Assembly (NCBI RefSeq): GCF_010728925.1
Contig: NZ_AP022608.1
Location: 2,046,001-2,110,000, forward strand
Reading direction: 5' to 3'
Origin: Mycolicibacterium gadium
GTDB taxonomy: Bacteria; Actinomycetota; Actinomycetes; Mycobacteriales; Mycobacteriaceae
Length of the DNA: 64,000 nt
Shown: piece after piece, positions 18,495 to 63,454 of the stretch
How the letters are laid out: each line of letters opens with the position of its first letter
Numbering within the stretch: the stretch's first letter is position 1
The notes under the pieces: model-generated
Told to the model about the DNA's origin: nothing
Database searches by the model: none
The model's input: only the letters and a program-made list of their open reading frames with translations
Position numbers and translations under genes: made by a program

Positions 18495-18516
18495 TATGTT
18501 GAGAATCAACATTCTC
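18495..18516 (+). promoter_or_regulatory. Operator copy GAGAATCAACATTCTC with adjacent -10
   Basis: GAGAATCAACATTCTC (18501-18516) is a perfect 6-4-6 palindrome immediately downstream of TATGTT (18495-18500), a good TANNNT -10. Transcription would start inside the operator, about 28 bases before the amidohydrolase GTG at 18536. A bound protein would block initiation. Confidence 0.7.
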
Positions 18517-18535
18517 AAGCATGTTGGAGGCGCTG

Positions 18536-19714
18536 GTGACCGAGGGAAGAGCATTCGAGGTCTGGGATGCCGACAATCACATGTACGAGACCATCGACGC
18601 GTACACCCGCTACCTGCCGGAGAAGTACTCCGAGGCGCTGAAGTTCATCGACGTCAAGGGTCGTAAAAAGCTGCAGATCCTCGGCACGATCACCGAGACG
18701 ATCCCCAATCCGACGTACGAGGTGATTCCCACACCTGGGGCATGGGCCGACTACTTCCGGGGCATAAATCCCGAGGGCAAGACGCTGCGCGAGCTGGCCG
18801 AGCCCATCCGCTGTCCCGACGAGTTCCGCCGTCCCGACCTGCGCCTGGCGTTGATGGACCGCCAGGGGGTCGACGGCGCCGTGATGTTCCCGACCACGGC
18901 GGGCATGCTGGAGGAGCGAATCAAGTCCGACACCGAGCTGACTCACGCCGTCACCCATGCCTTCAACCGGTGGCTGCTCGACGACTGGACCTTCAACTAT
19001 CACAACCGGATTTTCCCAGTGCCGGCGATCTCGCTGAACGATCCCGCACTCGGCGTGCAGGAGCTCGAATGGTGTCTGGAGAACGGCGCCAGAACGGTTC
19101 TGATCCGACCGGCACCCGTCCCGCGAGCGGACGGCACCTCCCGTTCGGCAGCATTGCCCGAATTCGACGACTTCTGGCGGCTGGTCGAGTCGTCGGGCAT
19201 CTCGGTACAGATGCACAATTCGGACTCCGGCTATGAGCGCTACATCGACGACTGGGAGGACGCTGCGGAGTTCAACGGATTCGCGCTGAGCAAGCTGCGG
19301 GGTTTCATCTACGAGGAGAGCCGAAATATCTTCGATACTCTCGCTGCGTTCATCGCTCACGGAGTGTTCGAGCGCTTTCCCGGAGCGCGCATCGGGGTGG
19401 TCGAGAACGGTGGCTCATGGGCGCACCGCTTGTTGGACGTCTTCGATCGCGTTTACCGCAAGAGGCCGTACGACTTCAGCGAACATCCCAGTGACGTCTT
19501 CCGCAGGCACGTCTGGATCAATCCGTTCCACGAGGAGGACATGTCCCATCTCGTCGAGCTTCTCGGCGCGGACCGCGTGATGTTCGGTTCGGATTACCCA
19601 CACCCCGAAGGTCTCGCCGAACCCGTCGACTTCGTCAAGGAGCTGAGCGGCCTACCGGCTGACACCACCGCACGGGTGATGGGCGGCAATCTCAAAGAGC
19701 TGATCGGGATCTGA
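18536..19714 (+). CDS. Amidohydrolase-2 (ACMSD-like) family protein
   Basis: This 392-residue TIM-barrel metal hydrolase or decarboxylase has D-A-D-N-H-M-Y-E near residue 11, V-Q-M-H-N-S-D-S-G-Y (His) and M-F-G-S-D-Y-P-H-P-E-G near the end, the metal and catalytic positions of the family. I prefer GTG 18536 because GGAGG sits 5 bases upstream; ATG 18521 is in frame but overlaps the region just after the operator and has no ribosome site. It is closely related to the 34063-35259 protein (shared D-N-H-M-Y-E-T/I, W-T-F-N-Y and R-P-A-P-V-P motifs), and both genes carry the palindromic operator. Confidence 0.9.
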   Translation: MTEGRAFEVWDADNHMYETIDAYTRYLPEKYSEALKFIDVKGRKKLQILGTITETIPNPTYEVIPTPGAWADYFRGINPEGKTLRELAEPIRCPDEFRRPDLRLALMDRQGVDGAVMFPTTAGMLEERIKSDTELTHAVTHAFNRWLLDDWTFNYHNRIFPVPAISLNDPALGVQELEWCLENGARTVLIRPAPVPRADGTSRSAALPEFDDFWRLVESSGISVQMHNSDSGYERYIDDWEDAAEFNGFALSKLRGFIYEESRNIFDTLAAFIAHGVFERFPGARIGVVENGGSWAHRLLDVFDRVYRKRPYDFSEHPSDVFRRHVWINPFHEEDMSHLVELLGADRVMFGSDYPHPEGLAEPVDFVKELSGLPADTTARVMGGNLKELIGI

Positions 19715-19761
19715 CTCGTGCGCCGGCACCTGCCCGGGACATGTCTCACGTGCCGACCTCG

Positions 19762-19823
19762 GAGCGACAATGTCGCTCAACTGCGACCGTCCGTGCCTTG
19801 GTAGTTGAGCGACTTAGTCGCTC
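19762..19823. terminator. Twin stem-loops between convergent genes
   Basis: Two near-identical hairpins, GAGCGAC-aat-GTCGCTC (19762-19778) and GAGCGAC-tta-GTCGCTC (19807-19823), lie 29 bases apart, and their flanks are also inverted relative to each other (CTCAACTGC against GTAGTTGAG). They sit between the amidohydrolase stop (19714) and the stop of the leftward DapB-like gene (19943). A bidirectional terminator or a small interspersed repeat would fit; no U-tract is present. Confidence 0.55.
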
Positions 19824-19942
19824 AGAGGTTGGCACCAAAGGTATATCCGCCTTGGAGACGGTGACGCTTCGAATTGGCGGCTCAATCCCCCGCCCAGGTC
19901 ATCTATTGCGTATCGGGATGGTCGAGAACGGTGGCAAGTTGC

Positions 19943-21055
19943 CTACCGACGTGTGGTCCTCGATTGTCTGCTGACGATGGAGGGGCCCGCCAACGGACGC
20001 GAGATCAACCCAGCAGGTGCGTCGACGACTTCGGGTATCGCATTCACCGCAGCCAGCGCCGTGACGGCCACGCCCGGGTTGACCCGATCTGAGGCCGACT
20101 GCTCCATGTACAGTTCCATGCTCATACTCGGCCGGCCCTCGACACGGAAGACCATGCCGCCTTGGTCCTGTCTCGAAGGCCGTGGCCAGCGTTCCGGCCA
20201 GGGTGTCGAACTCACCGTCGCGAAATACTGAACCGCGACCGCCTTCCGCCCATCGACGACACCGGCAAGCTGCCAACGGTGCGCGCAAATCGTCCCCTCC
20301 GGGATCACGCCCAGCGCGGTCTTGAGGTCCGTTGGTGCGAGCAATGTTTCCCAGTCCAATTCGACACCGTCGAGTTCCAACCCGAGGATGTCGGCTATAT
20401 AGCGCACCACGGTTTCCCAATCGTGGTTCACCTTTCCCGATGCGATTCGAGCGGGCACGTGCCCTTCCGGTTTTCCGAACCCCATCGATTCGTGCAGCAC
20501 ATCCCAGATCGGATAAGCCTTATCCAGGTTGATCGCGTATTCGTCCATCCGGTATGAGTCGATGGTGCCGGCACCCGCAAGTAGCGCGGTGGGGATGTTC
20601 AGACTGATGAAGCCCGGCTCCGCGCCGGTCGCGTAAAACGTCGATTTGCCCTTCGCCGCTGCGGCTTCCACGGCAGCACGCCATTCGGGTGGCGCAGCCG
20701 GCGGATAGACCATCGGTATCGTCGAGATCGTCACGACGTTGATCCCGCCCTGGAGGTAGGCGACGATGTCCGCGATAGCTTCGGCCTCGCGACGGACGGC
20801 AGTGGAACAGTACAGAATGCAGTCAGGCTCCAAAGCTAGGATGACATCGAGGTCATCGGTCGCCGCGATTCCAACATCCGCAGTGTCGACGAGTCGACCC
20901 GCGTCCACACCAACCTTGTCGGGCGTCGACACCTTGACTCCGACGAGTTCCAGCGCCGGGTCATTGATTGTCGCCCGCAGGGCCTCCCGCCCTGTCAAAC
21001 CGGTTCCGACATGGACGACCCGATACGGTCGGGACGAACCCGATTCGATTGTCAC
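19943..21055 (-). CDS. DapB-like NAD(P)-dependent dehydrogenase
   Basis: This 370-residue protein has the dihydrodipicolinate-reductase-like N-terminal domain (V-V-H-V-G-T-G-L-T-G at 13-22, then D-P-A-L-E-L-V-G-V) found in 2,4-diaminopentanoate dehydrogenase and many mycobacterial homologues. The middle has P-D-C-I-L-Y-C-S-T and G-I-N-V-V-T-I-S. It is the last gene of the six-gene leftward operon starting at the alcohol dehydrogenase (24884). Two paralogues occur at 53288-54367 and 56052-57140. The true substrate of these proteins in catabolic clusters is not established; a carbonyl or imine reduction is the simplest guess. Confidence 0.82.
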   Translation of the reverse strand: MTIESGSSRPYRVVHVGTGLTGREALRATINDPALELVGVKVSTPDKVGVDAGRLVDTADVGIAATDDLDVILALEPDCILYCSTAVRREAEAIADIVAYLQGGINVVTISTIPMVYPPAAPPEWRAAVEAAAAKGKSTFYATGAEPGFISLNIPTALLAGAGTIDSYRMDEYAINLDKAYPIWDVLHESMGFGKPEGHVPARIASGKVNHDWETVVRYIADILGLELDGVELDWETLLAPTDLKTALGVIPEGTICAHRWQLAGVVDGRKAVAVQYFATVSSTPWPERWPRPSRQDQGGMVFRVEGRPSMSMELYMEQSASDRVNPGVAVTALAAVNAIPEVVDAPAGLISRPLAGPSIVSRQSRTTRR

Positions 21056-30748: not shown

Positions 30749-30764
30749 GAGAATGCATATTCTC
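30749..30764. promoter_or_regulatory. Operator copy GAGAATGCATATTCTC in a divergent promoter
   Basis: A perfect palindrome (the GCAT spacer region is itself symmetric within ATGCAT) lies between the leftward amidohydrolase operon (start 30730) and the rightward acyl-CoA dehydrogenase (start 30835). TATTCT at 30758-30763 fits a rightward -10. One bound dimer could control both directions. It is the closest copy to the consensus. Confidence 0.75.
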
Positions 30765-32859: not shown

Positions 32860-33286
32860 GACTGGATGCAGCGAACGCGTCCACGGTTATTCGGCGATGA
32901 GCGAACAGCCATCGCCCATCTGTCTCGACGAGAACGTCTCGGTATCGCCCCCAGTGGTCGAGTCCGACGTCGGTGTGGACGGCGAAATAGCTGCTGACCT
33001 CCACTCGGTCGGAGGCCACCGATCCGAACCGGATGCTCGAAACGTGATGGCGCACATGCGTCGGCGCCTGCCTGTGCGGATCCGGATTCCTGGCCATCGC
33101 CGAGCCAAGGCCCGCTTCGATCGCCGCAGGACCTTTCAGTGGTTCATCGCCACCGGTGAACTCGAGAACACCGTCCGGCGCGAAGCAGCCTGCCAGCGCG
33201 TGCAGGTCGAAGCGATCGGTCGCGGCGGTGTAGTCCGATAACGTCTGCCGCACCTGTTCGCGGACGTCGATCTCCCAACCCTGCAT
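32849..33286 (-). CDS. SnoaL/NTF2-like protein
   Basis: This 145-residue NTF2-like protein has L-S-D-Y-T-A-A-T-D-R-F-D near the start, C-F-A-P-D-G-V-L-E-F-T-G-G, H-V-R-H-H-V-S-S-I-R (candidate catalytic His cluster) and W-L-F-A-H-R-R-I-T-V. It is transcribed toward the luciferase-like gene, with overlapping 3' ends, and divergently from the isochorismatase-fold gene at 33337. The fold points to isomerase, hydratase or binding function; no specific substrate is visible. Confidence 0.78.
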   Translation of the reverse strand: MQGWEIDVREQVRQTLSDYTAATDRFDLHALAGCFAPDGVLEFTGGDEPLKGPAAIEAGLGSAMARNPDPHRQAPTHVRHHVSSIRFGSVASDRVEVSSYFAVHTDVGLDHWGRYRDVLVETDGRWLFAHRRITVDAFAASSLMR

Positions 33287-33320: not shown

Positions 33321-33336
33321 GATAACGTCTGTTCTC
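33321..33336 (+). promoter_or_regulatory. Operator copy GATAACGTCTGTTCTC abutting a start codon
   Basis: The palindrome ends at the base just before ATG 33337. TAACGT (33323-33328) inside it fits a -10 box, so the mRNA may be leaderless and the operator would cover both promoter and start. The identical 16-mer recurs at 34001-34016. It lies in the divergent gap with the SnoaL-like gene. Confidence 0.7.
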
Positions 33337-34000: not shown

Positions 34001-34016
34001 GATAACGTCTGTTCTC
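34001..34016 (+). promoter_or_regulatory. Operator copy GATAACGTCTGTTCTC
   Basis: Identical 16-mer to 33321-33336, 46 bp before the amidohydrolase ATG at 34063. TAACGT inside it can serve as -10. Unlike the upstream copy, the gene here has a proper leader with the ribosome site GAGGAGGG. Confidence 0.7.
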
Positions 34017-39729: not shown

Positions 39730-39756
39730 TCGGACATTTTTGTAATATCTGTCCGA
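39730..39756. promoter_or_regulatory. Inverted repeat upstream of the igr-like operon
   Basis: TCGGACA (39730-39736) and TGTCCGA (39750-39756) form a perfect 7-bp inverted repeat with a 13-bp AT-rich spacer, 29 bp before GTG 39785. A related GTCCGACA half-site lies at 39611-39618. This is unlike the GAGAAY palindrome, so the operon may answer to a different regulator. GATAAC/GATAAT words also occur at 39656-39692 but without second halves. Confidence 0.5.
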
Positions 39757-39784: not shown

Positions 39785-40996
39785 GTGCCCACTGACTCCA
39801 CCTCCAGACCGACGTCCACGCTCCCCTTGCACTCACCAGACTTCTACGCAGGCGACCCGTACCCGGCGTACCGTGAATTGCGCAGCAGCACGCCCATCGT
39901 CTGGAACGACGCCACGAACTTTTGGGCGCTGACGAAGTACGAGGACATCCGCTACGTATCCGGTCATCCGCTCACGTTCACGTCAACCAAGGGCATCACG
40001 ATTCCGGACCCGAGCCAGCCGGAGCCGGTCCAAGAAGGCAACCTCATCTTCACGGACCCACCCCGGCACCGGCAGCTACGCAAGCTCATCAACTCGGGGT
40101 TCACTCGCCGTCAGGTGACGTTGCTGGAGCCGAAAGTGCGCGAGATCGTCAAGGGCATCCTCGATGACGTCGATACGTCCCGGGAATACGAGTTCGCCGA
40201 GGAAATCGCCGCACCCCTGCCTACCCGGCTGATTGCCGAGATGCTTGGTGCGCCGCCCGAGGACTGGGAGCAGTTCCGGACTTGGTCGGATGCCGCCGTC
40301 GGAGCCGATGATCCTGATATCGAGATGGAACCCATGGCTGCGACGCTGGAGCTCTACGAGTACTTCACCAAACTGATCGAAGCACGGCGTTCCGGTGAGG
40401 TCGTCGGTGACGACCTCCTGAGCATTCTGGCTGCCGCGGAGGTCGACGGTGAGCGACTCACCGATGCGGACCTGCTGAACTTCTCCTTCTTACTCCTCGT
40501 GGCGGGCAACGAGACCACCCGCAATCTCATCGCGCTCGGAACGCAGGCGCTGCTGGATCATCCGGACCAATTCGCCCTCCTGCGCGCCAACCCGGAGTTG
40601 CTGCCGCTGGCCGTCGAGGAGATGCTGCGATTCACCAGCCCCGTGACACACATGGCGCGCGAGGCCACCGAGGACGTCGAAATCCGCGGCCAGCGGATCA
40701 GGGCAGGCGAAAAGGTCGTGATGCTGTACGGCGCGGCCAATCGCGACGCAGAGATTTTCGGCCCCACCAGCGAAGAATTCGACATCACCCGAAATCCGAA
40801 CCCGCACATCGCCTTCGGCGCAGGAGAGCATGCGTGCCTCGGTGCACAACTGGCACGCCTCGAGGCACGGATCATGTTCGAAGTACTGCTTGGCACCTAC
40901 CCGACGATCGAACTGACCGGCGACGTGACCCGCTTGCGGGCCACGATGGTGCCGGGCGTGAAGAAGATGCCGGTACGTCTGAAAGCGAGTGTCTGA
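39785..40996 (+). CDS. Cytochrome P450 (CYP125/CYP142-like position in igr-like operon)
   Basis: This 403-residue soluble bacterial P450 has the I-helix oxygen motif V-A-G-N-E-T-T, the E-x-x-R motif in E-E-M-L-R and the haem loop F-G-A-G-E-H-A-C-L-G with Cys351. GTG 39785 follows GAGGAAGG. It is the first gene of an operon whose other members match the M. tuberculosis igr operon, where CYP125 oxidises the terminal side-chain carbon of cholesterol. By position this one should hydroxylate or carboxylate a side-chain methyl, but the CYP family number cannot be fixed by eye. No ferredoxin gene is nearby. Confidence 0.88.
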   Translation: MPTDSTSRPTSTLPLHSPDFYAGDPYPAYRELRSSTPIVWNDATNFWALTKYEDIRYVSGHPLTFTSTKGITIPDPSQPEPVQEGNLIFTDPPRHRQLRKLINSGFTRRQVTLLEPKVREIVKGILDDVDTSREYEFAEEIAAPLPTRLIAEMLGAPPEDWEQFRTWSDAAVGADDPDIEMEPMAATLELYEYFTKLIEARRSGEVVGDDLLSILAAAEVDGERLTDADLLNFSFLLLVAGNETTRNLIALGTQALLDHPDQFALLRANPELLPLAVEEMLRFTSPVTHMAREATEDVEIRGQRIRAGEKVVMLYGAANRDAEIFGPTSEEFDITRNPNPHIAFGAGEHACLGAQLARLEARIMFEVLLGTYPTIELTGDVTRLRATMVPGVKKMPVRLKASV

Positions 40997-42177
40997 TGGA
41001 TTTCGAGTACACGCCCGAGCAGGAACAGCTCCGCAAGGAATACCGTGAACGCCTCGAGGCCGTGATGACCCCGGAGCGGCGGAAGTCCGTCGCCAAGCTC
41101 ATGGAGGGTGGCGACGCCATGACCGAGTGCCGGCAGGCCCTCGGCGAGGCTGGCCTGCTGGGCGTCGCCTGGCCCGTCGAGTACGGCGGCAGCGGTCTGA
41201 CCGCGCTCGAGCAGTACATCTTCGGCGAGGAGGCGCGTCGCGTAAATGCGCCGTTGCCGATGATCACGCTGAACACCGTCGGTCCCACCCTGATTCAGTA
41301 CGGGACCGAAGAGCAGAAGCAGAAGTTTCTGCCCGCGATCCTCAAGGGCGAGGTCGAATTCGCAATCGGATACTCCGAGCCCGGGGCCGGCAGCGATCTC
41401 GCCTCGCTGCGGACCACGGCGGTGCGCGACGGCGACCACTTCGTGATCAACGGATCCAAGATGTTCACCAGTGGTGCGGAGTTCGCCGACTACATCTGGC
41501 TGGCCGCCCGCACCGATCCGGAGGCCAAGAAGCACAAGGGCATCACGGTTTTCATGGTGCCCACCGACTCGCCTGGGTTCTCCTGGAAACCGCTGAACAC
41601 CATGCCCGGCGTGCAGACCTACTACACCTTCTATGACGACGTGCGCGTGCACGAGAGCGCGATCGTCCTCGGTGAGAACGAAGGCTGGAAGCTGATCACC
41701 AATCAGCTGAACCTGGAACGCGCTGCGCTGGGCAATCTCGGCGCACTCGAGCCGCTGTTCAACAAAACCCTGGAATGGGCCAAGACCACCGAGCTCGACG
41801 ACGGCCTGGTGATCGACCAGCCGTGGGTGCAACAAGCACTGGCCCGGGTGGAAGCCCAAGTCTCCGCGTACCGGCTGCTCAACCTGCGAGTGAACAGCAA
41901 CATGAGTTCCGGTGCGCTCGGCATGGGCGAGGCCTCGGCCGCAAAGGTTTTCGGCACCGAGCTCACCCAGCAGGTGGCGCGCGAGCTTCTCGACGTGGTG
42001 GGCCAGGCGGGCCTGCGCAAGGAGGCGTCGGCGCCACTCAAGGGCGAATTGGAAAGCGCGTACCGGCTTGCCGTCATCAACACCTTCGGTGGCGGCGCCA
42101 ACGAACTGCAACGCGACATCATCGCCATGGCCGGACTCTTGATGCCGCGCGCACCCCGTGACATGCGAGCCTCCTGA
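40996..42177 (+). CDS. FadE29/ChsE2-like acyl-CoA dehydrogenase
   Basis: This 393-residue protein resembles M. tuberculosis FadE29 (ChsE2, igr operon) along its length: M-D-F-E-Y-T-P-E-Q-E-Q-L, L-N-T-V-G-P-T-L-I-Q-Y-G near 100, F-A-I-G-Y-S-E-P-G-A-G-S-D-L, K-V-F-G-T-E near 325 and T-F-G-G-G-A-N-E near 375. ChsE2 and ChsE1 (FadE28) form an alpha2beta2 dehydrogenase for the three-carbon steroid side chain. The start overlaps the P450 stop (TGATG). The FadE28-like partner is encoded at 43199, three genes downstream rather than adjacent as in the igr operon. Confidence 0.88.
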   Translation: MDFEYTPEQEQLRKEYRERLEAVMTPERRKSVAKLMEGGDAMTECRQALGEAGLLGVAWPVEYGGSGLTALEQYIFGEEARRVNAPLPMITLNTVGPTLIQYGTEEQKQKFLPAILKGEVEFAIGYSEPGAGSDLASLRTTAVRDGDHFVINGSKMFTSGAEFADYIWLAARTDPEAKKHKGITVFMVPTDSPGFSWKPLNTMPGVQTYYTFYDDVRVHESAIVLGENEGWKLITNQLNLERAALGNLGALEPLFNKTLEWAKTTELDDGLVIDQPWVQQALARVEAQVSAYRLLNLRVNSNMSSGALGMGEASAAKVFGTELTQQVARELLDVVGQAGLRKEASAPLKGELESAYRLAVINTFGGGANELQRDIIAMAGLLMPRAPRDMRAS

Positions 42178-42185
42178 AAGGAACA

Positions 42186-42767
42186 GTGACTGTGACCGAA
42201 CTCGCCAAGGACGAACTACGGGAGCGCCTCGATGCGCTCATCGGCACGCCGACGGACGGGGTCGGCAAAAAGTCTCATGCCCCCGATCCGGTGAATGCCG
42301 CGATGATCCGGCACTGGGCCTATGCGCTCGATGACATGAACCCGGCCTATCTGGATCCGGAGTTCGCCGAGAACTCCCGCTACGGCGGACTCGTGTCCCC
42401 GCCCGTGATGCTGCAGAGCTGGACGATGCCACCGCCGAAACTCGCGGGCATTCATGAGCGCGGCGGCGTGCCGATCGAGATCAAGACCAATCCGCTGCAG
42501 TTCCTCTCGGATGCGGGCTACACCGGCATCATCGCGACCAACTCCGAGTTCGAGATCGAACGTTATCCCCGCGTCGGAGACCAGATCACCGCAGAGACGG
42601 TCTTCGACTCGATCTCGGACGAGAAGAAGACCGCGATGGGCAACGGCTTCTTCGTCACATGGGTCACCACCTATCGCGATCAGAACGACGAAGTCATCGG
42701 ACGACAGTGGTTCCGCACCCTGCGCTTCAAGACTGGTGGAGCCCCCGCCGGAACGGCCGGGGACTGA
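42186..42767 (+). CDS. MaoC-like hydratase subunit (equivalent to the N-terminal half of ChsH2)
   Basis: This 193-residue hot-dog protein has H-W-A-Y-A-L-D-D-M-N-P-A-Y-L-D near residue 40 (a D-D-M-N-P variant of the hydratase motif) and Y-G-G-L-V-S-P-P-V-M near 65. In M. tuberculosis ChsH2 (Rv3542c) this domain is fused to DUF35 and pairs with ChsH1 to hydrate the enoyl side chain; here the two domains are separate genes overlapping by TGATG at 42765-42769. The start is GTG 42186, with a second GTG at 42192. The separation is the main difference from igr. Confidence 0.85.
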   Translation: MTVTELAKDELRERLDALIGTPTDGVGKKSHAPDPVNAAMIRHWAYALDDMNPAYLDPEFAENSRYGGLVSPPVMLQSWTMPPPKLAGIHERGGVPIEIKTNPLQFLSDAGYTGIIATNSEFEIERYPRVGDQITAETVFDSISDEKKTAMGNGFFVTWVTTYRDQNDEVIGRQWFRTLRFKTGGAPAGTAGD

Positions 42768-43180
42768 TGGCCACCAGACTCGCCCCTTCGGTCAGTCCCG
42801 ACACGGAGTTTTTCTGGTCGGGATTGAAGGAGCACGAGCTTCGCATCCAGCGCTGCACGGACTGCAACACGTTGCGGGTGCCGCCGCGGCCGATGTGCGG
42901 CAAATGTCAGTCGCTGAACTGGGATTACGTCGTGTCGACAGGCCGAGGCACGGTGTACAGCTTCGTCATGCCGAAGTATCCGCCGCTGCCGTTCCTCGAA
43001 TACCCCTATGTCGTCGCACTCATCGAGCTCGACGAAGGCGTTCGCATCGTCTCGAACCTCTGCGGGATCGAACCCGCCGACATCGAGGTTGGAATGCCCG
43101 TCGAGGCGTTTTATGAGACCTTCGAGGCCCTCCCGAGCGGCGACGAGTTGACGCTGCACCAGTTCCGGCCCGTCGGCTGA
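42767..43180 (+). CDS. DUF35 zinc-ribbon/OB-fold protein (equivalent to the C-terminal half of ChsH2)
   Basis: This 137-residue protein has a zinc ribbon with Cys30, 33, 44 and 47 (C-T-D-C ... C-G-K-C), followed by an OB-fold (G-T-V-Y-S-F-V-M, Y-P-Y-V-V-A-L-I-E-L). In the structurally characterised Ltp2-ChsH2 complex, the DUF35 domain is required for retro-aldol activity of Ltp2. The Ltp2-like protein encoded at 44754 is the likely partner. It is translationally coupled to the MaoC gene. A second, unlinked DUF35 at 4429 shows the same thiolase-DUF35 pairing. Confidence 0.9.
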   Translation: MATRLAPSVSPDTEFFWSGLKEHELRIQRCTDCNTLRVPPRPMCGKCQSLNWDYVVSTGRGTVYSFVMPKYPPLPFLEYPYVVALIELDEGVRIVSNLCGIEPADIEVGMPVEAFYETFEALPSGDELTLHQFRPVG

Positions 43181-43198
43181 CCGAGACGAGAGTTCACA

Positions 43199-44308
43199 AT
43201 GGATTTCACATTCACCGAAGAGCAAGAGACGGTCGCCAAAGTCGCCCGTCAGCTGTTCGAGGCGCGCGCCACGCCAGAGCATCTGACCGAACTCGAATCC
43301 ACCGATGTGCGGTACGACGCCGCGCTGTGGAGCGAACTGGCTGCCTCGGACTTGCTCGGTATCGCCTTGCCTGAGACCGTGGGCGGTAGCGGGAGCGGGT
43401 TCCTCGAGCTGGCTGTCCTGCTGAGCGAGGTCGGCTTCAGCGTCGCGCCGGTACCGGTCTACGCGACCCTCGTGTTGGGAGCGGATACGATCGCGCGACA
43501 CGGAGACTCCGACTTGCAGAAGCGGTTCCTGCCCGGCGTCATCGACGGCAGCACGATCCTCACCGCGGCACTCACCGAGCCGGGGAACTCCGACCCGGCC
43601 ACGCCGCGCACCACCGCGCGCGCCGATGGCGACTCGTGGCGACTCGACGGCACCAAGGATCTGGTGCCCGCGGCACAGCTGGCTTCCGCGGTCGTCGTGT
43701 CCGCGCAGGCCGACGACGGACCCGGCCTGTTCGTCGTCGAGACAGGCTCAGCAGGAGTCACCGTCACCCCGGTCGTCACGACCAACGGCGAACCCCACGC
43801 CGACGTCGAACTGTCGGGCGCGGTCGGTCACCGGCTCACCGAGCACGCCGGTGCGGACATCGTTACCGCTTTGTACTCCCGCGCACTGGTGGGACTGTGC
43901 GCCATCCAGATCGGCGTTGTGGAACGGGCTTTGAAGCTCGCTGCGTCCTACACCACCGAGCGTGAGCAGTTCGGCAGACCCATCGGATCGTTCCAGGCGG
44001 TTCAGCAGCGGCTGGCCGACGCCTTCATCGACGTCGAGGCCATCCGCTGGACCGCGTGGTACGCGGCGTGGTTGATCGCTGAGGGCAGGCCCGTCGAACG
44101 CGAAGCCGGTGTAGCCAAGTTCTGGGCCGCCGAGGCTGGTGCGCGCGTCGCGGCCTCGGCCCAGCAGGTGCACGGTGGCATGGGTATCGACGTGACCTAC
44201 CCGTTGTCGCGGTACTTCCTGTGGGCCAAGCAGATCGAACTCGCCCTCGGGTCGGCGTCACAACAGTTGGCTCGCCTCGGCCGAACCTATTCGGAAGGAA
44301 CGAAATGA
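43199..44308 (+). CDS. FadE28/ChsE1-like acyl-CoA dehydrogenase
   Basis: This 369-residue protein matches the FadE28 (ChsE1) type: M-D-F-T-F-T-E-E-Q, A-L-T-E-P-G-N-S-D-P-A near residue 125 (degenerate FAD motif), F-G-R-P-I-G-S-F-Q-A-V-Q near 262 and H-G-G-M-G-I-D-V-T-Y-P-L-S-R-Y near 325, where an Asp follows Gly-Ile rather than the usual Trp-Glu. That H-G-G-M-G-x-D-V-T-Y-P block is shared with FadE28. Likely partner of the 40996 dehydrogenase in a heterotetramer. Its stop overlaps the ChsH1-like start. Confidence 0.87.
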   Translation: MDFTFTEEQETVAKVARQLFEARATPEHLTELESTDVRYDAALWSELAASDLLGIALPETVGGSGSGFLELAVLLSEVGFSVAPVPVYATLVLGADTIARHGDSDLQKRFLPGVIDGSTILTAALTEPGNSDPATPRTTARADGDSWRLDGTKDLVPAAQLASAVVVSAQADDGPGLFVVETGSAGVTVTPVVTTNGEPHADVELSGAVGHRLTEHAGADIVTALYSRALVGLCAIQIGVVERALKLAASYTTEREQFGRPIGSFQAVQQRLADAFIDVEAIRWTAWYAAWLIAEGRPVEREAGVAKFWAAEAGARVAASAQQVHGGMGIDVTYPLSRYFLWAKQIELALGSASQQLARLGRTYSEGTK

Positions 44309-44757
44309 CCGCCACCATCGGACGCACCACCACGCTCGCGTTCAACGCCGTCAACGTCGGCGACGAAGTCACGCCGATGGACGTCCCTGTCACGACGACG
44401 CTGATCGTCGCGGGGGCCATTGCATCTCGTGACTACATGCCGGTCCACCACGACCGCGACTTCGCCAATTCGCAGGGCTCCAAGGACATCTTCCTCAACA
44501 TCCTGACCACGAACGGGCTGTGCGTGAAATTCCTGCACGACTGGGCGGGGCCCGAGGCGATGGTCAAGAAGCTGTCGATTCGCCTCGGGGTGCCCGCCTA
44601 TCCGAACGATCCGATGCGCTTCGAGGGCAGCGTCACTGACAAGTCGTCGTCGGACGGCGAGGGTCTCGTCGAGGTCACCTTCAAGGGCACCAACAGCCTC
44701 GGAGATCACGTGAAGGGCACCGCGGTGCTCAGTCTGCTCGACGGAGTCGACGCGTGA
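44305..44757 (+). CDS. ChsH1-like MaoC hydratase subunit
   Basis: This 150-residue single hot-dog protein matches M. tuberculosis ChsH1 (Rv3541c) block by block: S-R-D-Y-M-P-V-H-H-D-R-D near 41-52, Q-G-S-K-D-I-F-L-N-I-L-T near 57-68, D-W-A-G-P near 78 and N-S-L-G-D-H-V near 130. The D-x-x-x-x-H-H-D segment holds the catalytic Asp and His of the hydratase-2 class. With the 42186 protein it should form the heteromeric hydratase that makes the tertiary alcohol for retro-aldol cleavage. ATG 44305 has GGAAGGA upstream. Confidence 0.9.
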   Translation: MTATIGRTTTLAFNAVNVGDEVTPMDVPVTTTLIVAGAIASRDYMPVHHDRDFANSQGSKDIFLNILTTNGLCVKFLHDWAGPEAMVKKLSIRLGVPAYPNDPMRFEGSVTDKSSSDGEGLVEVTFKGTNSLGDHVKGTAVLSLLDGVDA

Positions 44758-45923
44758 GAGACGGGATCGGCGGCAAGGCAGCGCTCGCCGGCATCGGGCA
44801 GACCGAATTCTCGAAGGAGTCCGGTCGCACCGAGATGCAATTGGCCTGCGAGGCAGTCAAAGCGGCGATCGACGACGCCGGGCTTCGTGCGAGCGACATC
44901 GACGGCATGGTCACCTTCACTGTCGACGAGAACGAGGAAATCGAAGTCGCACGCAACGTCGGCATCGAGAACCTCACGTTCTTCACGAGGGTGCCACACG
45001 GCGGTGGAGCCGCCGCCGGCACCGTGATGCAGGCCGCCATGGCGATCGCAACGGGTGCCGCCGAAGCGGTCGTGTGCTACCGCGCATTCAATGAGCGCTC
45101 CGGGTTTCGATTCGGCGGCGCGGGCCGCCAACCCGGAGTGACCCCGCTGTGGATGGCGCCGTATGCACCGTTCGGGTTCATGACACCGGCCGCTTGGGTC
45201 GCCTTGCACGCTCAGCGGTACATGTCGACCTACGGCGTCACCAATGCCGACTTCGGCAAGATCTCCGTCATCGACCGCAAGCACGCCGCGACGAACCCGG
45301 ACGCTTGGTTCTACGGGAAGCCGATCACCATTGAGCAACACCAGGAGTCGCGCTGGATCATCGATCCTGTGCTGCGCCTACTCGACTGCTGTCAGGAGAG
45401 CGACGGCGGTGTGGCAATGGTGGTGACCAGTCTCGAGCGCGCCCGCGATCTCCCCAAGCCGCCCGCGGTGATCACCGCTGCCGCCCAGGGCGCCGCCTTC
45501 GACGGTGAAGTCATGACCAGCTACTACCGCGATGACATCACCGGCCTGCCAGAAATGGGTGTGGTGGGCAACAAACTCTGGGGCAACTCGGGGCTCAAGC
45601 CCGACGACATCTCGACGGCGTTTCTCTACGACCACTTCACTCCGTTCGTCTTCACGCAGCTCGAGGAGCTCGGCTTTTGCGGGCGCGGCGAGGCCAAGGA
45701 TTTCGTATCCGTCGAGGAGCTGTCGATCGGCGGACGGCTGCCGATCAACACGAACGGCGGGCTGCTGGGCGAGGCGTACATCCACGGCATGAATGGCATC
45801 ACTGAGGGGGTGCGCCAGGTTCGGGGCACCTCGCACAACCAGGTCCACAACGTCGAGCACGTATTGGTCACTTCGGGTACCGGCGTCCCCACCAGCGGAC
45901 TCATCCTGGCCCCGGACCGCTGA
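44754..45923 (+). CDS. Ltp2-like thiolase-fold aldolase
   Basis: This 389-residue SCP2-thiolase-fold protein matches M. tuberculosis Ltp2 (Rv3540c) blocks: F-N-E-R-S-G near residue 108, D-R-K-H-A-A-T-N-P near 175, F-Y-G-K-P-I-T-I-E near 190, L-Y-D-H-F-T-P-F near 290, P-I-N-T-N-G-G near 335 and Y-I-H-G-M-N-G-I near 345. Ltp2 is an aldolase that releases a short acyl-CoA from the tertiary alcohol at C17, not a true thiolase. The start is GTG 44754, overlapping the ChsH1-like stop. The last catabolic gene of the igr-like operon; the TetR gene follows after 17 bp. Confidence 0.9.
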   Translation: MRDGIGGKAALAGIGQTEFSKESGRTEMQLACEAVKAAIDDAGLRASDIDGMVTFTVDENEEIEVARNVGIENLTFFTRVPHGGGAAAGTVMQAAMAIATGAAEAVVCYRAFNERSGFRFGGAGRQPGVTPLWMAPYAPFGFMTPAAWVALHAQRYMSTYGVTNADFGKISVIDRKHAATNPDAWFYGKPITIEQHQESRWIIDPVLRLLDCCQESDGGVAMVVTSLERARDLPKPPAVITAAAQGAAFDGEVMTSYYRDDITGLPEMGVVGNKLWGNSGLKPDDISTAFLYDHFTPFVFTQLEELGFCGRGEAKDFVSVEELSIGGRLPINTNGGLLGEAYIHGMNGITEGVRQVRGTSHNQVHNVEHVLVTSGTGVPTSGLILAPDR

Positions 45924-45940
45924 GCAGTTAATGTCGAGCG

Positions 45941-46564
45941 GTGAGCTCTGAGATGACGCAGGCCCAGTTCGTTCAGGCGACCGATACCCGGGACGCCATC
46001 CTCTCGGCTGCGTTCCTCTGCTTCCGCACTCAGGGCCTTCGCAAGACGACCATCGTCGACATCGCGAAGGCAGCCGAGGTCTCCCGCAGCACCTTCTACG
46101 AGTACTTCCGGGATAAAGAGACGATCGTCGAGGCGTGTGCGGAGGCCGCGTCCCAGCGGTTCTACCGCAATATGGCCACGGCCATCGACAGGCACGGCGG
46201 CAGCACACTGCAGGGGCGACTGGTCCAGGCAGCCGTATTCGTCTCCCAAGCACGCAGAGTCGTCGAACCCGAGGTGTACTTCGACGAAGAAGAAGTCAAC
46301 CTGATGATGACGAAGAACGCGGCCACTCTGCTGCAGGAGTGCACCGAGTTCCTCGCTCCATATGTGTCTGCGGCCAGATTGACCGGTGAGGTGCGTCGCG
46401 ACCTCGATGTCCCATCAGCGGCCGAATGGTTCGCGCGGATGCTCTTCTCACTGTTCACCACGCCATCCCCAACTATCGATATGCGCGATGACGACGCGGT
46501 GGCGAATTTCGTACGACCTTATGTCGTCGGCGGATTTGTCGAGGACCGGTCCCGGAGGCGCTGA
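45941..46564 (+). CDS. TetR-family transcriptional regulator
   Basis: This 207-residue one-component repressor has an N-terminal helix-turn-helix at about 38-57 (T-I-V-D-I-A-K-A-A-E-V then S-R-S-T-F-Y-E-Y-F) and an all-helical ligand domain. It is probably co-transcribed with the igr-like operon. It is the only TetR protein in the window. TetR dimers typically bind 15-20-bp palindromes, so it is the best local candidate to bind the dispersed GAGAAY-N4-RTTCTC element, although no copy lies directly in front of it or of the igr-like operon. The pathway intermediate, probably a CoA ester, would be the expected ligand. Confidence 0.9.
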   Translation: MSSEMTQAQFVQATDTRDAILSAAFLCFRTQGLRKTTIVDIAKAAEVSRSTFYEYFRDKETIVEACAEAASQRFYRNMATAIDRHGGSTLQGRLVQAAVFVSQARRVVEPEVYFDEEEVNLMMTKNAATLLQECTEFLAPYVSAARLTGEVRRDLDVPSAAEWFARMLFSLFTTPSPTIDMRDDDAVANFVRPYVVGGFVEDRSRRR

Positions 46565-46604: not shown

Positions 46605-46620
46605 GATAATGCACATTCTC
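46605..46620 (+). promoter_or_regulatory. Operator copy GATAATGCACATTCTC
   Basis: The palindrome has halves GATAAT and ATTCTC around a GCAC spacer, 23 bp before the GTG of the hypothetical gene at 46644 and 40 bp after the TetR stop. Its halves are the same two types seen at the other sites (GATAAY and RTTCTC). Confidence 0.68.
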
Positions 46621-50299: not shown

Positions 50300-50315
50300 G
50301 AGAACCGGTATTCTC
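50300..50315. promoter_or_regulatory. Operator copy GAGAACCGGTATTCTC in a divergent promoter
   Basis: A near-perfect palindrome (the core ACCGGT is also symmetric) lies between the SnoaL-like gene (start 50268) and the synthetase (start 50382). TATTCT at 50309-50314 fits the rightward -10, giving a leader of about 60 bases. Confidence 0.73.
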
Positions 50316-52445: not shown

Positions 52446-52474
52446 GTAAACTCTCATTCTCAGTCCGGTAGATT
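52446..52474 (+). promoter_or_regulatory. Operator-like GTAAACTCTCATTCTC plus leaderless -10
   Basis: The 16-mer (52446-52461) has a perfect ATTCTC half. Seven bases later TAGATT (52469-52474) fits TANNNT and ends exactly 6 bases before GTG 52481, so the SDR mRNA should be leaderless. The operator covers the region between -35 and -10. The same arrangement recurs at 55190-55226. Confidence 0.62.
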
Positions 52475-55189: not shown

Positions 55190-55219
55190 AGAAACGCTTA
55201 TTCTCAGGTGCGGTAGCTT
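55190..55219 (+). promoter_or_regulatory. Operator-like AGAAACGCTTATTCTC plus leaderless -10
   Basis: The 16-mer (55190-55205) has a perfect ATTCTC half and a poorer partner. TAGCTT (55214-55219) follows after eight bases and ends 6 bases before GTG 55226, predicting a leaderless mRNA. A second ATTCTC word lies at 55177-55182. The layout copies that at 52446-52481. Confidence 0.58.
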
Positions 55220-57553: not shown

Positions 57554-58228
57554 TCAGTCCGAGAAGATTTCGCGGTTCACGGTGTGCAGGTAGGGAATTG
57601 CCAGGAACGGCGTGATGTAGAAGATGTTGTACAGCCACCACCCGAGAACCGGGAACGCGACACCGGCGTAACGCACGTCGGCGTACATGGTCATGTTGAG
57701 GATGTAGCCCATCCACGCGATGAGCCCGAACCAGCAGGTCACGACCATCCATTGATGGCCCCACCGCCTCATCTGCAGAAAGCCGATCGCTGCCGCGATA
57801 CGCATCGGGAAGACGACGACGATGCATACGATGATCCAGGCTTTCTCACCCGGCGCACCCGCACCACCGATCCACAGTTCGTTGTAATGCCAGAAGTATC
57901 CGCCGTCCATCAGATTGCCCCACGCGGTGAAGATCGTGCGGGTGATCAGGGCATGATTGGCGAAAATGTCCAAGCCCCAACCGATGCTGTTGATGGCCGC
58001 ATCGAGGATGACGACGTAGCCGATCAGCGTGACCATCATCGGTCGTACGGAGAGGCCTGCGGACTGCGCCTTGCGTAACAGATAGATTCCGCGGCAGAAA
58101 ACCGGGAGGCCGAACGGCCCGAGCACCAGAGTGCCCATGAGGATTGTGCCCACAATAAGCCAGCGGTCGGCGCTTTTTTGCGCTCGGCGACTCTCGTCCT
58201 CGTGCAGATCCAATGTCATCGAGTTCAT
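57554..58228 (-). CDS. Multispanning membrane protein, unknown function
   Basis: This 224-residue protein has about five transmembrane helices (roughly residues 22-44, 62-84, 128-150, 158-180 and 187-212). Conserved-looking polar features between them include [12 protein letters not shown] near 110, [10 protein letters not shown] and a C-terminal Y-L-H-T-V-N-R-E. The size and the Trp/Tyr/Asn-rich loop between helices 2 and 3 recall the AveC-like protein encoded at 60296, but I cannot show homology by eye. It follows two tiny single-helix proteins in the same operon. Confidence 0.72.
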
Positions 58229-58238
58229 CTGCCGCGCC

Positions 58239-58376
58239 CTACCAGTCCTTCACAAAGAGCATCTGCAGCTGAATGAGGAACATGGCGATCAGACACCCGT
58301 AGACGAAGACCTGGAACACGATCAGTGCTCGGTGCCTACGCCGATCCTGTTCGCTCATCGGGGGTTTCGCGGACAT
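58239..58376 (-). CDS. Small single-pass membrane protein (45 aa)
   Basis: This 45-residue protein has a charged N-terminus (S-A-K-P-P-M-S-E-Q-D-R-R-R-H-R) and one hydrophobic helix (A-L-I-V-F-Q-V-F-V-Y-G-C-L-I) ending in F-V-K-D-W. Its ATG (58374-58376) overlaps the stop of the 32-residue protein upstream by TGATG, and its stop lies 10 bp before the multispanning gene. Such coupling argues strongly that it is translated. It may be an accessory subunit of the membrane complex. Confidence 0.68.
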   Translation of the reverse strand: MSAKPPMSEQDRRRHRALIVFQVFVYGCLIAMFLIQLQMLFVKDW

Positions 58377-58474
58377 CAAAAGGTTCCGATGTTGGACAGC
58401 AGCCAATACCAGAACCAGACGATCGCGCCCATCGCCCCCCACGCAAACGTCAGTCGCACCAACTCTTGGAGCAT
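58376..58474 (-). CDS. Small single-pass membrane protein (32 aa)
   Basis: This tiny gene has an excellent ribosome site (GGAGGGG, 5 bases before ATG 58474) and encodes one hydrophobic, Trp-rich helix: M-L-Q-E-L-V-R-L-T-F-A-W then G-A-M-G-A-I-V-W-F-W-Y-W-L-L-S-N. Its stop TGA overlaps the next start (TGATG). It is the first gene of the operon, 24 bp downstream of the operator palindrome. I know of no named family; the layout suggests a small subunit of the same membrane assembly. Confidence 0.68.
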   Translation of the reverse strand: MLQELVRLTFAWGAMGAIVWFWYWLLSNIGTF

Positions 58475-58497
58475 GCCAACCCCTCCGCCGCCCATAC

Positions 58498-58513
58498 GAG
58501 AACGGCTATTCTC
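58498..58513 (-). promoter_or_regulatory. Operator copy GAGAACGGCTATTCTC
   Basis: A perfect 6-4-6 palindrome directly upstream of the small-membrane-protein operon (start 58474), downstream of the GntR gene stop (58588). This links the membrane module to the same regulon as the amidohydrolases, synthetase and P450s. Confidence 0.72.
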
Positions 58514-58587: not shown

Positions 58588-59250
58588 TTAGACCTGGCGG
58601 GACCTCAGCGCCACCACGAGATGCTCGGCGGCCGCCCGCTGCGTCTCGATCTGGTTCTGCGACGCGCGCTTGCCGTCACCTGCGCGGATCAGCGAAATAG
58701 TCTTGAGGATACCGAGTTTCGTGGTCTCGACGGCCTCCGGCGAAACTGCCTGGACATCGCTGACCTCGACCAGAACGCGCAGCTTACGTAAGGTGCGGTT
58801 CATCCGTTTCGACACGCCGACTTCCATGATGGCGTCGACGTACTTGCCGACGATCCGCCATACGTCGCCATCGGATGTCGCTGTCTCCAGCTCTGCGCCG
58901 ATGGTCGCCAACGTCGCGTCGAGTTCGTCCGTCAGGCGCTCGGCCGCCTTCCTCGCGACGTGCGCGTAGATCAGGCCGAAGATCTCGGTGTTCTCGAGAA
59001 CGGAGTCCGGGTCAATGGGGAGGACGAAGGCTCCGCGGTGCAACTCGATCTCGATCCGGCCCTCGTTCTCGAGTATTGCGAGAGCTTCACGCACCGGCAC
59101 ACGACTGACTCCGAGTAGCTCGGCGGTCTCTTCTTGGTTGATCCTGTCACCGGGAGCCAGCCGACCCGCCATGATCTCGTCTCTCAAGAACGCCGCAACC
59201 TGTTCCCCGCTGCTGCGTCTTTTCAACCTGGCATCCGGCGAAGCGCTCAC
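58588..59250 (-). CDS. GntR-family regulator, FCD subfamily
   Basis: This 220-residue regulator has an N-terminal winged helix (helix-turn-helix about 39-60, Q-E-E-T-A-E-L-L-G-V then R-V-P-V-R-E-A-L) and a helical FCD-type C-terminal domain (about 85-210). The start is GTG 59250. FCD regulators of this kind are often controlled by organic acids or acyl-CoA. It lies between the SDR (59287) and the membrane operon on the same strand. The gap between them (58514-58587) holds AATATT-rich sequence with no clear GntR-type palindrome. Confidence 0.88.
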   Translation of the reverse strand: MSASPDARLKRRSSGEQVAAFLRDEIMAGRLAPGDRINQEETAELLGVSRVPVREALAILENEGRIEIELHRGAFVLPIDPDSVLENTEIFGLIYAHVARKAAERLTDELDATLATIGAELETATSDGDVWRIVGKYVDAIMEVGVSKRMNRTLRKLRVLVEVSDVQAVSPEAVETTKLGILKTISLIRAGDGKRASQNQIETQRAAAEHLVVALRSRQV

Positions 59251-61352: not shown

Positions 61353-62549
61353 TCACACCCTCACCGGAAGGGAAGCCCAGCCCCTGACGCTCGTTGTGTG
61401 AGCGCGCTTCGCGCGGGTGTAATCCACTTCCCAGTCAGGCCATCGCGAAAGCACCTCTTCCAGTGCGACCTTTGCTTGCACCCGTGCCAGGGCGGCGCCA
61501 AGACAGAAGTGAATGCCGTGCCCGAATGACAGGTGCGCGCCTCTGCGGTGGATGTCGAACGTGTCCGCATCGGGGAACTGTCGCTCGTCGCGGTTCGCCG
61601 AACCATTGAGCAGAAGCATCACCGAACCTTCGGGAACCGTCTGCCGGTAATGCTCGACATCACGGGCGACATACCGAGCTTGCACCGGGGACGGCGCCTC
61701 GAACCGGAGTACCTCCTCGATCGCGTTGGGAATCAGGCCGAAATCGGCTGCGAGCGCACGTCGCTGGTCAGGATGGTCCGACAGCAGCTGGCCGGCGAAA
61801 CCGATCAGCCGCGTCGTGGTCTCGTTGCCGGCACCGACGACAGTGCTTGTGTACGTCAGAACCTCGCCGCGGGTGAGCCGTCTACGGCTGCCGTCCGGCT
61901 CCTCCACCTCCGCGTTGACGAGGTCCGTCATCAGATCGTCGGACGGATGGTCGTAGCGCCAGTCGATGAACTCCTCCAGCATCGACCCCGAACTGGTCAA
62001 CATGTCTGCTGCGACATCCCCAGGACCGTTGTCGGATAGTTCAAGCAACTTGTCGCTCTTCTGCCGAATGGCGACCTGTTTGTCCTCGGGTATGCCCAAC
62101 AGGTATCCGATGGTTCGCATCGGCATCCACGCACCGAGATCGGCGATGAAGTCGAATCGATCGGTCTCGGCCAGCGGTTCCAGTGATCGCCGGCAGAACT
62201 CCCTGGCCAATGGCTCGATGGCGGCCATGCGCCGCGGAGTGAAAACGCCCGACAACAGGCGTCGGTGCAGGTCATGAATCGGTGGGTCTTCGAACAAGAT
62301 GATGCCCGGGGGCACCTCGATATTGTTGAGCAGCACCTCGATGACCGTGCCGCGGCCGGATCGATAGTCCTGCCAGTTCACCAACTCCCGGGCGACGTCC
62401 GAGTGCCTGCTGAGCGCATAAAAGCCGTACTTCTCGTTGTGGTAGAGCGGCGCTTCCTCGCGCAGGCGCCGCCACACCGGGTACGGATCGTCATCGATCT
62501 CGAAGTCGAAAGGGTCGTAGTACGGGTCAACCTTCACCCTGTATGTCAC
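61353..62549 (-). CDS. Cytochrome P450
   Basis: This 398-residue soluble P450 has the I-helix motif G-A-G-N-E-T-T-T, E-x-x-R in E-E-V-L-R and the haem loop F-G-H-G-I-H-F-C-L-G with Cys349. It starts at GTG 62549. In the minus orientation TATTCT, embedded in the operator palindrome, ends 6 bases before that GTG, so the transcript is probably leaderless. Co-transcribed with the AveC-like membrane protein (1-bp gap), suggesting P450 oxidation followed by a membrane-associated cyclisation or dehydration. Confidence 0.9.
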   Translation of the reverse strand: MTYRVKVDPYYDPFDFEIDDDPYPVWRRLREEAPLYHNEKYGFYALSRHSDVARELVNWQDYRSGRGTVIEVLLNNIEVPPGIILFEDPPIHDLHRRLLSGVFTPRRMAAIEPLAREFCRRSLEPLAETDRFDFIADLGAWMPMRTIGYLLGIPEDKQVAIRQKSDKLLELSDNGPGDVAADMLTSSGSMLEEFIDWRYDHPSDDLMTDLVNAEVEEPDGSRRRLTRGEVLTYTSTVVGAGNETTTRLIGFAGQLLSDHPDQRRALAADFGLIPNAIEEVLRFEAPSPVQARYVARDVEHYRQTVPEGSVMLLLNGSANRDERQFPDADTFDIHRRGAHLSFGHGIHFCLGAALARVQAKVALEEVLSRWPDWEVDYTRAKRAHTTSVRGWASLPVRV

Positions 62550-62554
62550 GAGCC

Positions 62555-62570
62555 GAGAATAAGCGTTATC
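62555..62570 (-). promoter_or_regulatory. Operator copy GAGAATAAGCGTTATC overlapping a leaderless promoter
   Basis: Read leftward it is GATAACGCTTATTCTC, followed by GGCTC and GTG 62549. TATTCT within it is a TANNNT -10 ending exactly 6 bases before the GTG. The operator therefore covers the -10 and transcription start of the P450/AveC operon. Confidence 0.72.
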
Positions 62571-62593
62571 GGCTGTCGCAACTACGTTTTCTG

Positions 62594-63424
62594 TTATTCC
62601 GCAGGCCGCATGCTGTTGCCTTTGATGACCGGCATGTTCGTCCAGGTGCCCCTGTCATCGCGATACCAGCCCGCAGCGGCCAGGGCGCCACCGTCGGCGT
62701 GCACGACGGATCCCGAGACCCACGCGGCCAACGGACTGGCCAGGAAAAGCACGCAGCCCGCGATGTCTTCCGGAGTGCCGAACCGCCCCAGCGGAATCCA
62801 CCGCGGCATGTGATGCCGTTGCGATGGGTGGATCATCCTGTCGAGAGGAACCTGGGCGCTATCGGTGGTCTCTGGTGCGACCGCGTTGACCCGAATGCCT
62901 TCCGGCCCCAATTCCAGGGCCAAGCTCATGGTGAAACCGGTGATCGCGGCCTTGAACGCGCCGTAGACCGCGAACTGTGGGATACCGCGGAAGCCTTCGA
63001 TCGACGAGATGTTCACAATGCTCGCGCCGCCGCCCGCGGCTCGCAGCAGCGGCAGCATCACCCGTGTGACGGAGAAGATGTGCTTGAGGTTCACCCGGTA
63101 GATGTCGTCGATCTGCTCGTCTGTCAGCTTCTCGAACGGCGTCGGACGCGTCATGAAGTGCCCGACGTTGTTGACCAACACATCGAGGCGCCCGAATCGA
63201 TCAGCGATTGTCGTTGCGAGTTCCGCCACGTCGACGGCGTCGGTCGCATCGCCGTGTATCACTGTGACGTTGGCGCCCGCAGTCCGCAGTTCGTCGGCTC
63301 GGGTCTCGTCGATCTCGAGCGCGACGACCGAGGCGCCCTGTTCGGCGAATATCGACACGGTCGCTCGCCCGATTCCTGCGCCGCCACCGGTGACCAGAAC
63401 AACCTTGTCGGTGAAGTCGATCAT
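62594..63424 (-). CDS. SDR-family oxidoreductase
   Basis: This 276-residue classical SDR has V-T-G-G-G-A-G-I-G-R-A at 11-21, V-N-N-V-G near 84-88 and the catalytic Tyr154/Lys158 in V-Y-G-A-F-K. Asp/Glu near residue 38 (A-L-E-I-D-E) suggests NAD preference. ATG 63424 follows GGAGG with a 5-base spacer, better than GTG 63436. The operator at 63439-63454 is 14 bp upstream and shared with the divergent gene. The stop lies 45 bp before the P450 start on the same strand, so read-through is possible. Confidence 0.87.
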   Translation of the reverse strand: MIDFTDKVVLVTGGGAGIGRATVSIFAEQGASVVALEIDETRADELRTAGANVTVIHGDATDAVDVAELATTIADRFGRLDVLVNNVGHFMTRPTPFEKLTDEQIDDIYRVNLKHIFSVTRVMLPLLRAAGGGASIVNISSIEGFRGIPQFAVYGAFKAAITGFTMSLALELGPEGIRVNAVAPETTDSAQVPLDRMIHPSQRHHMPRWIPLGRFGTPEDIAGCVLFLASPLAAWVSGSVVHADGGALAAAGWYRDDRGTWTNMPVIKGNSMRPAE

Positions 63425-63438
63425 GCCTACCTCCACTA

Positions 63439-63454
63439 GAGAACCAATATTCTC
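63439..63454. promoter_or_regulatory. Operator copy GAGAACCAATATTCTC in a divergent promoter
   Basis: The palindrome lies between the leftward SDR (start 63424) and the rightward gene at 63475. A further GAGAAT half-site occurs at 63461-63466. TATTCT (63448-63453) can serve as a rightward -10. Confidence 0.73.

Follow-up and report, generated by a model that had tools for sequence, protein, structure and literature searches.

A 16-bp palindrome confined to one catabolic island of Mycolicibacterium gadium is the probable operator of a TetR-family protein, TetR3, encoded in the same island

We examined a dispersed palindrome, GAGAAYN4RTTCTC, in a 64,000-nucleotide stretch of the Mycolicibacterium gadium chromosome (contig NZ_AP022608.1, positions 2,046,001 to 2,110,000 of the forward strand), referred to below as the window. 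The palindrome series, observed in an earlier sequence-only reading as the mark of a regulon of catabolic genes, is genuine. It is very probably the operator of TetR3, a TetR-family protein encoded 2.1 kb left of the window, which its sequence context suggests is an autorepressing, KstR-like local repressor of the catabolic island. TetR3 fits the sites better than TetR1, the candidate named in that reading, with respect to its own promoter, the conserved palindrome and the co-occurrence counts. Coordinates are in window numbering, with negative values left of the window and values above 64,000 right of it. The three TetR genes are:

-2855..-2067 (L006:17145-17933), minus strand: TetR3, 262 aa, left of the window, recognised by eye
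45953..46564 (open reading frame from 45941), plus strand: TetR1, PF00440
74996..75628 (L007:14996-15628), right of the window: TetR2, recognised by eye

Occurrence and placement of the palindrome

The whole genome (5,964,999 bases) was scanned, and the same patterns read backwards were used as the control. The exact palindrome GAGAAYN4RTTCTC occurred five times, all five inside the window, and its reversed control was not found; the relaxed form GAKAAYN4RTTMTC occurred 10 times, all 10 within 2064501-2112775, a 48-kb stretch amounting to ~0.8% of the chromosome, again with no match for the reversed control. Allowing up to one mismatch gave 45 places genome-wide vs 5 in the reversed control, and the 35 places beyond the exact set were scattered with three exceptions: 2088552 (window 42552), which is coding, and two places immediately to the left of the window, 2039498 and 2043943. 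The window held 17 matches with up to two mismatches, compared to 6.18 +/- 2.61 in shuffled sequence, and none of 100 shuffles reached 17. A position weight matrix (PWM) was prepared from the nine different sequences of the sites at 18501, 30749, 33321/34001, 46605, 50300, 58498, 62555, 63439 and 66760, and flanks of 20 kb to the left and 56 kb to the right were added for assessing the extent of the series. Next in the PWM ranking after the source sites were -6502 and -2057. The strong intergenic sites span -6502 to 66760, past both window edges, and the ~45 kb proposed for the regulon was therefore an underestimate. Half-site positions 1, 2, 4 and 5 were nearly fixed, position 3 was G in 83% and T in 17%, and the 4-bp spacer was almost free; these frequencies were drawn from PWM-selected sites and are biased toward the starting motif.

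The nine good copies noticed by eye (18501 through 63439) each matched GAGAAYN4RTTCTC with at most one mismatch, each was intergenic by our gene calls, and four of them (30749, 33321, 50300 and 63439) sit between divergent genes, as had been described. Placement was then scored in 14 islands (13 from other genomes plus the window's own; the PWM is circular for the own genome, not for the other 13), where "non-coding" denotes sequence outside matches to this island's proteins, or no more than 20 bases from the end of such a match. There were 117 matches with PWM of at least 14, with 109 in ~240 kb of non-coding sequence and 8 in ~844 kb of coding sequence, a ~48-fold difference in density, as opposed to the equal density in coding regions that would have spoken against the regulon. 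The site 5' end lay a median of 50 bp before the start codon (10th to 90th percentile, -144 to -20, for 177 gene-site pairs in which a divergent site was counted once for each of its two genes). Five of the 8 coding matches (in G001, G169, G270, G247 and G157) share a single conserved position in the 71457 ortholog, 61-62 bp into the gene as called; either its annotated start is too far upstream, or the operator lies within the gene. The corresponding copy in this genome (L007:11511-11526, window coordinate 71511) is weaker than those in the five other genomes. Another coding match falls inside TetR3 of G109.

TetR3 as the probable regulator

The palindrome occurs before TetR3 itself. Among 81 ortholog loci (some genomes being included twice), the promoter reached PWM of at least 10 in 69 and at least 14 in 53, most commonly 23-25 bp upstream of the start. 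Random 290-bp pieces gave 10.7 at the 95th percentile and 16.8 at the 99th, so that a single TetR3 promoter is suggestive and the whole set convincing. Diverged orthologs also carry a promoter site (G067, PWM 22.0; G206, 13.4; G156, 10.5), and the helix-turn-helix is almost invariant across 25 orthologs.

The distribution of TetR1, TetR2, TetR3 and exact sites was compared across one set of 297 genomes from the genus, using presence thresholds of at least 70% (TetR3), 71% (TetR1) and 59% (TetR2) identity; related genomes in this sample are not independent. TetR3 was present in 58 of the 297, about a fifth. One or more exact sites were found in 58/58 genomes with TetR3 vs 45/239 without, two or more in 56/58 vs 13/239 (Fisher 3.5e-45), and three or more in 51/58 vs 3/239. 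The corresponding values for two or more sites were 48/52 with TetR1 vs 21/245 without, and 56/60 with TetR2 vs 13/237 without. All three TetRs travel with the island, and the discordant genomes are for that reason the informative ones. Genomes with TetR1 and no TetR3 (G114 and G183) had no exact sites, with G114 showing two matches to the looser pattern; G183 retains the operon of TetR1 as well as TetR1, which directly separates TetR1 from the sites. Conversely, eight genomes with TetR3 and without TetR1 at 71% (G007, G067, G072, G156, G206, G211, G234 and G259) had 3, 3, 4, 2, 3, 2, 3 and 3 exact sites, respectively; some of the TetR1-lacking genomes, e.g., G007, hold a TetR1 relative of 61-67% identity. 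Genomes with TetR2 and no TetR3 (G069 and G308) had 0 and 1 exact sites.

Several observations weigh against TetR3. One half of the site in its promoter is usually degenerate, and 12 of the 81 promoters fall below PWM 10. TetR2 co-occurs with TetR3 almost perfectly, so that just the two genomes named separate the pair. The 13 TetR3-less genomes with two or more exact sites include G101 with four and G269 and G275 with three each; proteins other than TetR3 may recognise a similar word. The P450 promoter heading the TetR1 operon scores 17.5 in G270. Finally, a TetR3 paralog in G012 (63% identity) has the recognition helix SLRAFYQHF like TetR3, yet no PWM above 9 was found in its 8-kb locus, which slightly lowers our confidence in TetR3 and slightly raises the likelihood of a regulator from outside the island. 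In the other 10 of the 11 paralogs compared (55-63% identity) the helix reads S[LV]RTFYQHF, and in none of the 11 did the 240 bp upstream of the aligned start exceed PWM 9. The G007 paralog has a weak match (10.2) ~290 bp before its aligned start, ~200 bp from where the gene probably begins; past the 3' end of the gene, a single stronger match is present in the paralog locus of G007 (15.7) and in that of G104 (17.6).

In G101 two exact GAGAACN4GTTCTC palindromes lie 31 bp apart (G101:C1:6450986-6451032), with a similar pair in G254; the paired sites of G101 are possibly the arrangement of another regulator.

The family assignment of TetR3 draws on its listed relatives, on which the TetR_N domain PF00440 is annotated, and on the solved TetR-family proteins among its PDB matches. 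These matches are weak (best 2qwt, E 9.3e-8 over residues 41-197; KstR2, E 0.0059 over residues 46-136), and an NCBIfam scan gave nothing at 1e-30. An AlphaFold model of an ortholog is all-helical with ten helices, at low confidence (mean pLDDT 53.7). Among the best 120 of 193 relatives, the names, where given, are TetR/AcrR family protein, transcriptional regulator or uncharacterised protein, and the organisms, where given, are mycobacterial, save one metagenome-assembled genome labelled Sinobacteraceae. A plasmid search for TetR3 returned no match.

Other regulators and known systems

The motif might instead be bound by a regulator encoded beyond the island or by one of the conserved steroid regulators (KstR, KstR2 or an Rv0767c-type protein), which we consider very improbable. 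The half-site AGAAC is shared with KstR, and a published "motif X", tied to an Rv0767c ortholog (its letters are not given in the passages available), also marks P450 and short-chain dehydrogenase/reductase (SDR) genes; the spacer, however, is 4 bp here and 2 bp in KstR, and 194 of the 297 genomes have no exact site, an absence that a genus-wide regulator would not predict. To our knowledge, KstR2 and Rv0767c-type regulators are conserved across the genus. KstR is conserved through it as well, according to the abstract of PMC1995591; passages of that paper give its palindrome as TAGAAC-N2-GTTCTA, 14 bp. The island sites, with their spacer of 4 rather than 2, do not conform to the KstR-type operator TNNAACNNGTTNNA as given in such passages, and the dyad is, as first noted, unlike that of KstR; KstR itself was rejected as the regulator on this difference in spacer length.

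KstR is nevertheless the nearest known design to the TetR3 system. KstR, of M. smegmatis and relatives, is likewise a TetR repressor, its operator stands both in the promoter of its own gene and in many catabolic promoters, and the half-site is AGAAC/GTTCT; the two differ in operator length (14 bp with N2 vs 16 bp with N4) and in that the regulon here is a patchily distributed island. BkaR and 11 predicted mycobacterial TetR motifs (PMC4482099, as far as its main text shows) share the divergent TetR and the palindrome between the gene and its neighbour. Neither GAGAA nor TTCTC was found in the main text of that paper, whose motif logos are images, such that identity with one of them is possible. 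No paper on the motif or the island was apparent by title or abstract among the matches listed in open-licence PMC text, where logos are not text.

TetR2 (74996-75628) as the repressor acting at GAGAAY sites is very unlikely. The gene lies within the island, and 56 of the 60 genomes holding it have at least two exact sites, but the GAGAAY motif is found in 0/30 TetR2 promoters, G069 has TetR2 with no site and G308 with one exact site, and the TetR2 promoter bears a different palindrome, CAACATNCANNNTGAANGTTG, found exactly in this genome only there and in the 72607/73852 promoter. By eye, 9 of 11 sequences match CAACATNCANNNTGAANGTTG and the other 2 differ from it at one position; we infer that it belongs to the neighbouring TetR2. 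Before TetR2, at L007:14961-14983, is a perfect palindrome with 10-bp arms, GCAACATTCA-GCA-TGAATGTTGC. A related word is present at L007:13758-13778, in the 72607/73852 promoter, and a copy with two mismatches is present at window 62528-62548, adjoining site 62555.

The weakest candidate for the GAGAAY sites is TetR1 (45953-46564), which lies inside the cluster, had been the favoured local candidate and now has a very small chance of being the regulator: site 46605 directly follows its gene and 48 of the 52 genomes (of 297) that hold it have at least two exact sites, but its own-gene promoters have the motif in 0/43 (61-68% relatives included; 43 of 47 loci were usable, 4 being below the E-value limit or short of upstream sequence), the sites do not follow it where it is separated from TetR3, as the discordant genomes above indicate, and the head of its operon, which does reach 17.5 in G270, scores PWM 7.0 here and at least 14 in just that one of 11 other islands, with CGGACA-N13-TGTCCG there instead. 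The features concerned are:

39731..39755: palindrome CGGACA-N13-TGTCCG, promoter of the igr-like operon, candidate TetR1 operator
39785..46564, plus strand: igr-like operon of P450, acyl-CoA dehydrogenase, FAS1_DH/MaoC-like, small open reading frame, acyl-CoA dehydrogenase, MaoC, Ltp2-like thiolase and TetR1

Of 15 promoters examined by eye, other species included, 11 carried CGGACA-N13-TGTCCG exactly, and a variant was seen in G030, G270, G183 and the paralogous operon of G036. In this genome it was exact at 39731-39755 and one other place, and with up to one mismatch it was found at 23 places vs 9 in the control; the word alone is accordingly not specific. It is the probable TetR1 operator. 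The paralogous P450-to-TetR operon in G036 (contig C31, L075) encodes a TetR ~61-64% identical, and this second TetR is present alongside TetR1 in further genomes, e.g., G001 and G030.

Two other regulators in the window were tried and rejected using tblastn at 1e-30 against the regions read from G036, G027, G001, G030 and G007, which retain sites: the GntR protein at 58588-59172 had no counterpart in any of the five, and the IclR-like protein at 24967-25824 (named by eye) was found only in G001. Further regulators lie farther off.

Proposed mechanism

TetR-family repressors are usually dimeric, and TetR3, presumably a dimer, would bind its GAGAAYN4RTTCTC sites when a pathway metabolite is absent. 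The sites assigned to it mostly have their 5' ends 20-90 bp upstream of the start codon and would lie over or just downstream of promoters, such that bound TetR3 would hold down many operons of the ~75-kb island plus its own gene; the ligand, probably an acyl-CoA, would free the DNA. The igr-like operon would be under TetR1 and the 72607/73852 module under TetR2, each with its own operator. On balance we lean toward the broader view that a patchy ~75-kb mycobacterial island is controlled by three TetR-operator pairs, i.e., TetR3 (GAGAAYN4RTTCTC) island-wide, TetR1 (CGGACA-N13-TGTCCG) at the igr-like operon, and TetR2 (CAACATNCANNNTGAANGTTG) at a small module, and that it degrades a polycyclic or branched substrate new for these bacteria. 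A probable operator and regulator, with a list of predicted targets, are in hand for a large uncharacterised degradation island, and the TetR3 ligand would point to its substrate. Where several TetR genes are clustered, own-promoter sites together with genomes that separate the candidates may serve for assigning operators.

Individual sites

Counts below are for other islands with PWM of at least 14 no more than 200 bp upstream of the orthologous gene, where the gene was found, unless stated; paired counts follow the order of the genes.

-6502, left of the window: site GAGAACATACCTTCTC, between DapB-like and enoyl-CoA-hydratase-like genes (both named by eye); upstream of the -6439 ortholog, 7/7
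-2057, left of the window: site GAGAATACGCGTTCTG, 10 bp from the TetR3 start, with a divergent amidohydrolase-like gene; a weaker neighbour at -1969
17032..17047: weak site GGAAATGTTTGTTCTC, between 15962-17014 (minus) and 17111 (plus); PWM 12.6; in islands with the gene, the own included, at least 10 in 3/3 and at least 14 in 1/3
18501..18516: upstream of amidohydrolase 18521-19714 (plus); 10/12
30749..30764: between divergent amidohydrolase 29534-30730 (minus) and acyl-CoA dehydrogenase 30835-31944 (plus); 13/13 and 9/13
33321..33336: between divergent 32849-33286 (minus) and isochorismatase-fold 33337-33972 (plus); 11/11 and 13/13
34001..34016: upstream of amidohydrolase 34063-35259 (plus); poorly conserved, 1/13
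46605..46620: 3' of the TetR1 gene, before 46770-47171 (plus); at least 14 in 0/2, at least 10 in 1/2
50300..50315: between divergent 49705-50268 (minus) and acyl-CoA ligase 50382-51995 (plus); 9/10 and 12/13
52446..52461: weak site GTAAACTCTCATTCTC, between divergent 51992-52396 (minus) and SDR 52481 (plus); PWM 6.0; at least 14 in 1/7, at least 10 in 4/7
55190..55205: weak site AGAAACGCTTATTCTC, divergent SDR promoter, 54364-55152 (minus) and 55226 (plus); PWM 5.4; at least 14 in 4/9, at least 10 in 7/9
58498..58513: 270 bp before 57554-58228 (minus), the first called gene of a membrane module
62555..62570: upstream of P450 61353-62537 (minus); 5/5
63439..63454: between divergent SDR 62594-63424 (minus) and 63475-64116 (plus); 4/5 and 5/5
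66760, right of the window: site GAGAACAAACATTATC, between SDR 65891 and DapB-like 66885; 5/5 and 7/10

Three less perfect copies had also been proposed. Those at 52446 and 55190 do lie in divergent promoters, with the low scores given above; the copy at 49640 found no support in this genome (best PWM 2.4), although upstream of the same gene the PWM is at least 10 in 7 of 13 other islands. The strong-scoring coding match at 42552 is a word common to G000 and G270. Upstream of the 57554 ortholog a match was found within 200 bp in 0/7 other islands, a stretch too short to reach a position such as that of 58498. Between site 58498 and membrane gene 57554-58228, at 58228-58480, are short open reading frames resembling tiny membrane proteins (by eye).

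Content of the island

Pfam families in the island include SDRs, P450s, acyl-CoA dehydrogenases, MaoC, type III CoA-transferases, acyl-CoA ligases, amidohydrolases, luciferase-like proteins and DapB-like dehydrogenases; in NCBIfam no above-cut-off match was obtained for the four P450s or three acyl-CoA dehydrogenases scanned. As in the igr operon with its Ltp2 aldolase, genes for a P450, a pair of acyl-CoA dehydrogenases, MaoC-like proteins and an Ltp2-like thiolase occur together in 39785-45923, whereas the operon here ends in a TetR gene with its own palindrome. The thiolase matches PDB 6ok1, named a lipid-transfer protein (E 6.5e-171), and the NCBIfam lipid-transfer protein PRK07855 above cut-off (648.9 vs 469 bits), and the nearest solved sequence to the operon P450 is, by name, CYP125MRCA (E 2.5e-101). 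The 6ok1 and CYP125MRCA matches suggest side-chain removal, and the operon may remove the side chain from a steroid- or terpenoid-like acid. The gene at 35738-38098 encodes 786 aa in which a type III CoA-transferase stretch occurs twice; the protein looks like a fusion of two such enzymes.

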